Assembly: GCF_010994095.1 (NCBI RefSeq)
Contig: NZ_WJYO01000006.1
Coordinates: 310,001-374,000, forward strand
Source: Mumia xiangluensis
Lineage (GTDB): Bacteria; Actinomycetota; Actinomycetes; Propionibacteriales; Nocardioidaceae
DNA: 64,000 bases
Direction: 5' to 3'
Within the stretch, counting starts at the first letter, position 1; each line of letters opens with the position of its first letter. This document shows, piece after piece, positions 10,203-40,423 of the stretch. A program made the translations under genes and the position numbers. The notes under the pieces were generated by a model, which worked only from the letters and a program-made list of their open reading frames with translations, had not been told where the DNA came from and searched no databases.

Positions 10203-10673
<471 letters not shown>

Positions 10674-10678
10674 TCACA

Positions 10679-10826
10679 ACGCCTGAGGGGTTAGCTGTCG
10701 GGTTCGGGCCGAAGGTGCCCGGCCTGCCGCATGGTGCACGGCATGGCTTCACCCCAAGGAGCCGAGGCTCCGGATATGGGTTCCCCACTCCCGCCCGTTT
10801 GTTGCTCGTGGTTCGCCGGCCCCGTG
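10679..10826 (-). ncRNA. ydaO-yuaA (cyclic di-AMP) riboswitch
   Basis: On the minus strand the leader of the Rpf gene shows GGGAGTGGGGAACC, then TTGGGGTGAAGCC after a short hairpin, and the 3' signature GCCCGAACCCGACAGCTAAC near the end. These are the conserved blocks of the ydaO class in their proper order. The riboswitch ends about 15 nt before the ATG. Actinobacterial ydaO elements often control Rpf and other wall hydrolases, turning them off at high c-di-AMP. Outer boundaries are approximate. Confidence 0.9.
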
Positions 10827-10956
10827 ACCGGCCCTCCGGGGTAGATCTCGCTCGTGGGCGGGACTCGGCGTCGAGCAAGATCCCAGTCAGACTAACCGAC
10901 ACAAACAAGACATCAAGCCCACCGCGACGCAGAACGTCTTTTACACATCAGCGCCG

Positions 10957-11008
10957 GCGGTGAACCTGGTCCCACGGCGCGGGGCGATGGTGGGACCAGG
11001 CTCACCGC
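10957..11008. repeat. REP-like palindrome, copy A
   Basis: Arms of 19 nt (10957-10975 and 10990-11008) match with one mismatch around a 14-nt loop. The arm core is GGTGARCCTGGTCCCAC. Related arms occur at 12139-12232 and 40350-40401. Confidence 0.8.
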
Positions 11009-11233
11009 GCGGCACGACCACACCGCGCGCCGTACGACAACCGCGCACGCCGTACGACCACCGCGCGCGCACCGTACGGCTGCCGCTGCCGTGCCAGCCC
11101 CGCCCCCCGGTCGGTCCACATGCACGCCGCCCGCACCGCTATCCACAGGGCGACGCCGAGCTGCCCGCGAGCGAGGGCGCTCCTGGCGTGTCATGACGAC
11201 GTGCCCACACCCACACCGATCCCCGAGTCCCTC

Positions 11234-12145
11234 ATGCACGGCCCCTTCACCCGCGAGCGAGCGACAAGCGCCGGCCTCTCATCGAAGGCGCTCCTGGGCA
11301 AACGGTTCCAGCGCCTCCACCCAAGAGTGTGGGTCCACGTCGACCATTCGCTGTCCGACGTGGACCTCATCACCGCGGCTGCGCTCGCCGCGCCGTCGTA
11401 CGCGAAGGTCACCGATGGCGCGCGGCTCCGACTCCTGGGCTATGACGGCCTTCCCCTACGGCCGATCTGCTTCGTCGTTCCCGATGACCACCATGTGGCG
11501 CTGGACGGCGTCCTGGTGCACCGTACGAAGCTGGTCCCGCCGGTCGACGACGTCGGCGTCACGCCTGCCGCCGCGTTCCTCGGCTGCTGCGCGGAGGAGC
11601 GGACGATCGACCTCATCGCCGCTGGGGACTGGCTCGTCCGCAACGGCCACGCGCGGATCGCGGAGATCGCCGACCTGGCAACGTCTGACGGGTGGCGGCC
11701 CGGTGCGGCACGAGCACGTGCGATCCTTCCGCAGCTGAACCCGCGAGCGCGCTCACCTCGGGAGTCCAAGGTGCGCGCGTACCTCGTTGCTGCGGGACTC
11801 CCTGCACCGGAGGTCAACGTCGAGCTCGAGGTCGGGGGCAGGATGCTGGGCTGCGTCGATCTCCTCTATCGCCGCTGGATGCTGGTCATCGAGTACGAGG
11901 GACGCCAGCACGCCGAGGACGAGCACCAGTTCAATGTGGACATCAGCCGGTACGAACGCTTCCGCGACCATCACGTCACCTACGTCCAGGTCACGAACGC
12001 ACGGTTTGCGAACCCTCGAGCGATGGTGATGCTCGTCCACCAGAAGCTGGTCGCGTGCGGGTACGACGGACCGGCGCCGTCGTTCGGCCGACGATGGCGT
12101 GACCTCATCGCTCCTGTCGAGGGCGCCCACGCACGACGGCGGTGA
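11234..12145 (+). CDS. DUF559 (Vsr-like PD-(D/E)XK) protein
   Basis: A 303-residue protein in two parts. The N-terminal half (about 1-165) resembles the AbiEi-like winged-helix region often joined to this domain. The C-terminal half is a DUF559/Vsr-type nuclease fold: SPRESKVRAYLVAAGLPAPE, then CVDLLYRRWMLVIEYEGRQH. The candidate catalytic residues E177, D209, E220 and E222 are all present, so it could be active. The start is uncertain: a frame opens at 11120, but the family sequence begins near MHGPFTRE at 11234. It is bracketed by related palindromes; the downstream one overlaps its stop codon. No methylase or toxin partner is adjacent. Confidence 0.78.
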   Translation: MHGPFTRERATSAGLSSKALLGKRFQRLHPRVWVHVDHSLSDVDLITAAALAAPSYAKVTDGARLRLLGYDGLPLRPICFVVPDDHHVALDGVLVHRTKLVPPVDDVGVTPAAAFLGCCAEERTIDLIAAGDWLVRNGHARIAEIADLATSDGWRPGAARARAILPQLNPRARSPRESKVRAYLVAAGLPAPEVNVELEVGGRMLGCVDLLYRRWMLVIEYEGRQHAEDEHQFNVDISRYERFRDHHVTYVQVTNARFANPRAMVMLVHQKLVACGYDGPAPSFGRRWRDLIAPVEGAHARRR

Positions 12146-12232
12146 GCCTGGTCCCACCGAGATCGCCTCGGGTAGGACCCAGCTCACCGCCGTACGGGTG
12201 GAGTCGCCTCGGGTCGGACCCAGCTCACCGCC
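12139..12232. repeat. REP-like palindrome with duplicated arm, copy B
   Basis: One left arm (12139-12158, GCGGTGAGCCTGGTCCCACC) faces two right arms (12171-12190 and 12211-12232). The right arms lie in a direct repeat of about 31 nt with a 41-nt period (12163-12193, 12204-12234) that differs at one position. The left arm contains the stop codon of the DUF559 gene. It sits between that gene and terC, which converge. Confidence 0.8.
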
Positions 12233-23040: not shown

Positions 23041-23089
23041 TGATCGTGCAGGATCGGTGCTCAGATGAAGCACCGATCCTGCGCGATCA
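23041..23089. repeat. Long palindrome downstream of the htdX-like gene
   Basis: Arms 23041-23061 and 23069-23089 pair at 20 of 21 positions around a 7-nt loop (CAGATGA). There is no T-tract. It lies 98 bp past the stop of the fatty-acid operon and could end that transcript or be a REP-type element. Confidence 0.75.
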
Positions 23090-40320: not shown

Positions 40321-40349
40321 CGAGACCTGGCCGTGGCGAACCACGTACG

Positions 40350-40401
40350 GCGGTGAGCCAGGTCCCACCGTCGCAAGGACGGGTGGGACCCAACTCACCG
40401 C
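40350..40401. repeat. REP-like palindrome, copy C
   Basis: Left arm 40350-40369 (GCGGTGAGCCAGGTCCCACC) and right arm 40382-40401 (GGTGGGACCCAACTCACCGC) pair with three mismatches around a 12-nt loop. It matches copies A and B near the DUF559 gene. It lies 22 nt past the acnA stop and may also end that transcript. Confidence 0.8.
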
Positions 40402-40423
40402 CGCAGCAGTGGGTGTGGCGCGC

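Follow-up and report, generated by a model that had tools for sequence, protein, structure and literature searches.

A nuclease gene that stands between two copies of one palindrome raises the question of whether the enzyme and the repeat belong together, and whether such an enzyme might spread the repeat. An earlier note on the DNA studied here, a 64-kb window of the Mumia xiangluensis genome (G000), had placed one palindrome before a DUF559/Vsr-type gene, a second over its stop codon and a third near position 40350, and had likened the arrangement to RAYT genes flanked by REP sequences. The three palindromes were confirmed at 10957-11008, 12136-12193 and 40348-40403, and the stop codon of the nuclease gene (TGA) indeed lies within the GGTGAG of the downstream palindrome. 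The features discussed are the following.

10957-11008, no strand: upstream cognate palindrome, two 18-nt arms with starts 30 bp apart, arms 95% complementary
11201-12145, plus strand: gene for an AbiEi-like plus Vsr/DUF559-like nuclease, 314 aa, GTG start by orthologue comparison
11201-11725, plus strand: putative palindrome reader, the AbiEi-like N-terminal part of the protein, about residues 1-175 (Foldseek match to 6y8q; palindrome similarity tracks this region)
11741-12100, plus strand: predicted PD-(D/E)XK nuclease domain, Vsr / I-Bth0305I type, about residues 181-300 (conservation, fold, family matches of relatives)
11762, 11858, 11891 and 11897: putative catalytic residues E188, D220, E231 and E233, respectively
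12136-12193, no strand: downstream cognate palindrome, arms 87% complementary, overlapping the stop codon
12212-12229, minus strand: extra right arm, 41 bp beyond the first right arm
40348-40403, no strand: dispersed copy of the window palindrome, away from the gene, arms 86% complementary

A longer open reading frame for the nuclease gene opens at 11120, and the orthologues in three other Mumia genomes (G002, G004 and G001) start at the position equivalent to the GTG at 11201. The ATG at 11234 assumed by the earlier note, 226 bp past the upstream palindrome, is a possible start, but the orthologues favour the GTG; in the 314-residue frame the proposed residue set E177, D209, E220 and E222 is intact as E188, D220, E231 and E233. 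The first three of these are invariant in an alignment of 11 members, and position 233 is E or D in an alignment of 30 homologues. The window protein has no match in Pfam, NCBIfam or PADLOC and is not among the four DUF559 hits of its own genome; among the relatives in the 11-member alignment, PF18741 was matched in 6 and DUF559 in 4. A Foldseek search with the AlphaFold2 model of the window protein (mean pLDDT 85.7) ranks the AbiEi antitoxin 6y8q first (probability 1.00, E 6.7e-3, TM 0.32/0.46) and the catalytic domain of I-Bth0305I (3r3p) fourth (probability 0.97, E 0.30, TM 0.71 to the target), no Foldseek match having an E value as low as 0.001. The sequence match of 3r3p is weak (E 0.035). 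We label the window protein a nuclease because of the family matches of relatives in the same alignment and because of the fold; the DUF559/Vsr label given earlier is borne out at that level, though not by a family match of the protein itself. By its catalytic residues and fold, the protein would thus be a Vsr/DUF559-type PD-(D/E)XK nuclease with predicted activity. In four orthologue pairs (dS 0.6-0.9), dN/dS was 0.15-0.36, and the protein is therefore under purifying selection. The gene is syntenic across Mumia and is thus not now hopping itself. Its likeness to the Vsr, DUF559 and REase_MTES_1575 nucleases and to I-Bth0305I lies in the catalytic domain, as judged by relatives and fold, and we know of no type-specific dispersed palindromes for any of these.

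The arm of the window palindrome, GGTGAGCCTGGTCCCACC, has seven matches with at most 3 mismatches in the 64-kb window, against a mean of 0.16 in shuffled sequence, with none of 100 shuffles reaching seven. The element consists of GCGGTGAG..TGGTCCCAC, about 12 variable bases and the inverted arm, the arm starts being 30 bp apart. A known RNA family was rejected for the palindromes: near the gene, Rfam at the gathering threshold returned only a c-di-AMP (ydaO/yuaA) riboswitch (RF00379, 48.9 bits; 10666-10828, minus strand). This riboswitch lies upstream of a transglycosylase-like gene, and L040, the orthologous locus of G001, has it as well. Of the hairpins in the window, the one at 23041-23089 is the strongest (score 18, TGATCGTGCAGGATCGGTGCT arms) and is unlike the studied palindrome in sequence.

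Short palindromes do occur in GC-rich DNA, and the pair at this gene might be due to chance or to ordinary host repeats that happen to adjoin it. Yet only five hairpins scoring at least 13 were found in the 64 kb, two of them at the nuclease gene. The flank before the gene was compared with the flank after it at the best-matching homologue loci returned by searches of six Mumia genomes, 120 Nocardioidaceae genomes (119 with matches) and 148 genomes of the class (105 with matches), a score of at least 38, a threshold picked after the scores had been seen, being taken as a match. Matching flanks were found at 24 of 26 Mumia loci, at all 24 other Nocardioidaceae loci and at 24 of 26 loci of the class-level set (outside the family, 18 of 20), which gives 72 of 76 homologue loci across Actinomycetes, whereas none of 30 other long open reading frames of the window reached the threshold under the same treatment (maximum 36). 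These control genes led us to reject a chance origin of the bracketing, and we find chance or adjoining host repeats a scarcely credible explanation.

The Mumia comparison used 26 of 30 loci (L059, L063 and L065, short partial matches, and L046, a broken homologue, were left out) and kept minus-strand loci unturned, so that up and down are swapped for those; the assignment of repeats to the Mumia loci, with the same strand handling, used 27, L046 being included; the Nocardioidaceae comparison used 24 of 30, the other six being Mumia, and the class-level comparison all 26 new loci, with the coordinates of L230 set by hand. Flank matches were missing at L060, L215, L233 and L038, the last of which has N-containing low-complexity sequence on its upstream side. 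Flank pairs mixed between loci scored a median of 25, with a 95th percentile of 33 in Nocardioidaceae and 34 in the class versus 56 in Mumia, a set in which orthologues have flanks in common; in the Nocardioidaceae set, 17 of 24 own pairs exceeded the mixed 99th percentile (46). Homologue types differ in their repeats, and close relatives have common ones (e.g. L054, L060, L050, L055). At four divergent homologues (L057, L058, L062, L064) the repeats are short and in tandem, e.g. GGTGACTCGCGAGC, with opposite orientation before versus after the gene, an arrangement that is a tandem-repeat version of the same bracketing. The idea that the window palindrome itself would cluster at DUF559 paralogues was not upheld: of the G000 homologues examined, six in all, the window gene alone stands between copies of it. 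The other five carry other repeats (L060 on one side only), and general clustering at all DUF559 paralogues was accordingly not seen in this set.

Are these repeats confined to the gene? As the earlier note had proposed, the palindrome was counted genome-wide: its arm has 50 matches (at most 2 mismatches) in its own 4.62 Mb genome versus 3 for a reversed control, and besides the two clusters at the gene they form 23 others, 19 of which hold at least two arms. Fifteen Mumia elements searched in the six genomes gave 29-81 matches per genome. Among the places listed, 102 in total (with the 15 query places included and strands merged by hand), 22 lie within 1 kb of a homologue and 80 are dispersed. 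In 73 of these 80 the genome has the cognate gene type, in two of them (in G004) as a broken gene, and the remaining 7 are in genomes that do not have it; here and below, the elements came from the searched genomes, which biases the counts toward home matches. Two A2 places of G000 (L164, L165) have identical flanks and are perhaps one duplicated stretch. In G004, a broken homologue (L046 / L065; G004:C1:1683673-1684117) was observed, with its palindrome type at two listed places elsewhere in the genome, as expected of relics after gene loss.

For the other Nocardioidaceae, 11 elements were searched in the 11 genomes that they came from, and 90 of the 100 places listed were in the genome of the element concerned. 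Listed places in the own genome numbered 29 in G022, 20 in G010, 13 in G051, 9 in G019, 6 in G073, 5 in G064, 3 in G013 and 2 in G090 (one further place each for G013 and G090 beside the gene's own), and the single listed place in G024, G079 and G102 is the gene's own copy. For ten elements outside the family, the same was true of 100 of 108 listed places, and copies that clearly do not adjoin the gene were listed in G252 (40 listed places), G223 (32), G191 (15) and G158 (5). The listed places are the two flanks in G234 and G247, and a single place was listed in G131, G186, G243 and G122; total matches in these six genomes were 27, 10, 10, 12, 5 and 2, respectively. Some places were off-target, as G102 has 7 listed places for the element of G064 and G223 has 8 for that of G247. 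Thus, among the places listed, no copy was clearly away from the gene for 3 of 11 Nocardioidaceae elements and 6 of 10 elements outside the family. Many genomes show clear dispersal, but some do not, and this unevenness outside Mumia counts against the repeat-spreading reading.

The palindromes may instead have been spread by something else, the nuclease gene having homed into them and ended up between two copies. The nuclease domain resembles the homing endonuclease I-Bth0305I, and homing would account for the bracketing, but the repeat type follows the gene type. In G001 the orthologue occupies the same locus but is the most diverged one, with 63% identity to the window protein, and the palindrome on its two sides is GGTGAGCTGGTTCCCAC, which differs from that of the window gene. 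Arm copies of GGTGAGCTGGTTCCCAC (at most 1 mismatch) number 39 in G001, 31 of them exact, and 3, 1, 1, 0 and 0 in the other five Mumia genomes; the window arm, at the same stringency, numbers 32 in G000, 9 in G002, 14 in G003, 7 in G004 and 0 in both G005 and G001. Upstream of the orthologue, G002 and G004 have an element similar to the upstream palindrome and G001 has a different sequence. Hence in G001 the genome-wide set has changed with the diverged gene while the locus has not, which is not expected of a late-coming parasite, and G005, with neither an orthologue (best homologue 33%) nor a copy of the window arm, also argues against homing. We therefore consider it unlikely that the gene is a homing parasite of foreign repeats.

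Palindrome similarity was compared with protein identity in 68 homologues and increases with it (Mantel r 0.50; 0 of 2000 permutations). These 68 of 80 loci exclude the four that had no flank match (L038, L060, L215, L233), the four with tandem repeats (L057, L058, L062, L064), three with cut or odd coordinates (L130, L220, L230) and L232; L067 and L106, one gene obtained from two sources, were both retained. When the protein regions were regressed jointly, the standardised weights were 0.19 for residues 1-60, 0.44 for residues 61-180 and -0.09 for residues 181-300. Because this weight falls on the first two regions and not on the third, we propose that the palindrome is read by the AbiEi-like part; the correlation points to this, with common descent contributing. 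Taken singly, the three regions correlate with the palindrome at Spearman 0.32, 0.29 and 0.25, respectively, and the last value, for the nuclease region alone, weakens the case for the repeat-spreading system.

The copies also differ between species. Of the 19 G000 sites queried, 17 were aligned with syntenic Mumia spacers. The element of G000 is absent in every relative fetched at L139 (3 relatives), L140 (3), L144 (2) and L153 (1); it is present in some relatives and absent in others at L131, L137, L143, L151 and L152, present in the one relative fetched at L141, and present in all four species at L147, the remaining spacer alignments being too poor to judge. The dispersed copy of the window at 40348-40403 (L152), for instance, is present in the syntenic spacer of G004 and absent from that of G002, with an ambiguous state in G003. 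Copies thus come and go between Mumia species at syntenic spacers. The comparison of insertion sites suggested in the earlier note succeeded as to presence and absence, but not as to junctions: neither insertion junctions nor target-site duplications were readable, since the Mumia spacers, as well as one G252 site in four relatives, are too diverged. In G003, the spacer syntenic to L139 (L207) was observed to hold other palindromic repeats, TTTGCCACGCCGGCGCGG..., where G000 has the element.

With regard to gene context, a simple ORF heuristic classified 17 of the 19 sites as 8 convergent, 9 co-directional, 0 divergent and 0 intragenic, and many copies lie just past stop codons. AbiEi antitoxins are autorepressors that bind inverted repeats, and the palindromes might be the operators of an AbiEi-type autorepressor with a regulon, or else transcription terminators, for which the position of many copies directly after stop codons would be suitable. 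The terminator alternative, already raised in the earlier note, loses ground in that inspection of the sequence found no T-run after either gene-flanking palindrome, although terminators without a T-run would be compatible with the terminator scan, which detected none but covered loops of 3-8 bases only, as against the 12-base loops here. Moreover, operators are hard to reconcile with 0 of 17 classified sites between divergent genes, and specificity for the homologue type is not expected of terminators. Operators or terminators are therefore a distinctly improbable account of the palindromes.

At the G252 sites (L234-L253), the flanks outside the conserved core are self-complementary with a sequence that differs per site (permutation p 1e-4); in G223 this is true of the first four bases only (p 0.009), and it is not significant in the A1 set of G000. 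The G252 flanks could mean that the element inserts into stems already there, that insertion itself builds the stem, or that a longer stem is selected for.

In G000 and G001, apart from the defining 30 bp, neighbouring arms lie 31, 41-42, 52-53, 60-62 and 92 bp apart; 33 and 38 each occur once, and there is one direct pair at 30. The phase is tight at periods of 10.1-10.5 bp, with a vector strength of 0.88-0.91 that none of 2000 uniform draws attained; with each distinct spacing counted once per genome it is 0.76 (3 of 2000 draws). As far as a crude null, non-independent tandem arrays and the dominance of 31 and 41 allow, the phased arms look like duplex binding sites, an indication that is suggestive at most.

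Phased arm arrays would also suit the binding of a multimer. The palindromes may be genomic decoys for self-marking or restraint, which tie up a dangerous nuclease and stop it from acting, in the manner of a defence or abortive-infection device. The AbiEi antitoxin of type IV toxin-antitoxin systems (6y8q) is the best fold match of the N-terminal half, and PADLOC AbiEi models match 7 of the 11 relatives, the window protein not being among them; genomes with gene-linked copies alone, among the places listed, would fit such a local role. In contrast to AbiEi antitoxins, the protein carries a nuclease domain, its palindromes are dispersed in the genome, and none of the four genes adjoining it at this locus (a permease, a transglycosylase-like gene, TerC and one without a match) is an AbiEii nucleotidyltransferase, so that the expected partner is absent among the neighbours examined. 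Restraint by decoys does not by itself explain the gain of copies at new places either, and we think it unlikely to be the role of the palindromes.

How far, then, does the likeness to RAYT genes and their repeats (REPtrons) go? According to PMC3733652, PMC8266576 and PMC3686654, REPtrons too have an enzyme gene flanked by its own palindromes and several enzyme/repeat pairs per genome; their dispersed copies likewise lie mostly between convergent or co-directional genes (PMC3733652), and copy number follows the cognate gene, enzyme and repeat co-varying. The window gene and many homologues, part of those beyond Mumia excepted, have at their flanks a palindrome with dispersed copies elsewhere in the genome, and repeat abundance depends on the cognate gene with the exception of the 7 of 80 listed dispersed Mumia places. 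However, the REPtron enzyme is an HUH/Y1 transposase, and the AbiEi-like plus PD-(D/E)XK protein bears no sign of HUH/Y1. The HUH motif and catalytic tyrosine of the IS200/IS605 Y1 fold were not found, the protein having no Pfam match and its conserved residues being E, D and E-x-E/D; no Y1 transposase is among the best 50 of 103 Foldseek matches; and the GTAG tag of REPs is absent from the window arm and the conserved outer bases. With these two defining features lacking, membership in the RAYT family was rejected. TnpA-REP processes single-stranded REP (PMC8266576), whereas the phased arms here suggest duplex recognition, and what is recognized is probably the duplex rather than the hairpin. 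PMC3733652 also describes TIR-flanked relatives of RAYTs, as well as CGTC REPs, which similarly are dispersed palindromes without a known mobiliser but have stems of 8-9 bp and occur mostly in alpha-Proteobacteria; the main text of that paper contains none of the words actinobacter-, Mycobacter- and Streptomyces.

The RAYT/REP-like arrangement with a Vsr/DUF559 nuclease is thus supported as an analogy: in Mumia the repeats are dispersed; they match the cognate gene type, vary from one species to another and have diverged together with the gene, while their spreading by the nuclease is what we infer. We incline, with some reserve, to a two-part system made of a nuclease whose AbiEi-like region recognises a type-specific palindrome, and of that element, which flanks the gene and is often scattered. 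That a single expanded family of AbiEi-Vsr fusion nucleases in Actinomycetes mobilises its own palindromes, independently of HUH RAYTs, through duplex recognition and cut-and-repair, we hold to be nearly balanced between yes and no, a shade on the doubtful side. In the two-part system, the AbiEi-like region would bind the arms as duplex DNA on one helix face, the nuclease of Vsr/homing type would nick or cut the DNA, be it at the element, close to it or at target sites, and repair by the host would copy the element into new intergenic places. The gene-linked copies would be the source, and the dispersed set would therefore follow the specificity of the gene. We regard the arrangement as convergent with REPtrons but built on an unrelated enzyme, and its way of working may prove REPtron-like; no title or abstract opening pairs DUF559, Vsr or AbiEi proteins with palindromic repeats in the literature covered, most subscription journals and bioRxiv lying outside that coverage.

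The origin and upkeep of bacterial palindromic repeats is an old question, for which the enzymes proposed so far are the HUH RAYTs. The proteins described here would be another enzyme family, unrelated to the RAYTs, that is linked with repeats of its own in one bacterial class, with several enzyme/repeat pairs per genome. Given the natural difference in specificity between the orthologues of G000 and G001, both recognition and spreading are testable by domain swaps. This system would suggest a role for common genes that match only AbiEi/DUF559-type models, and it might yield new sequence-specific nucleases.
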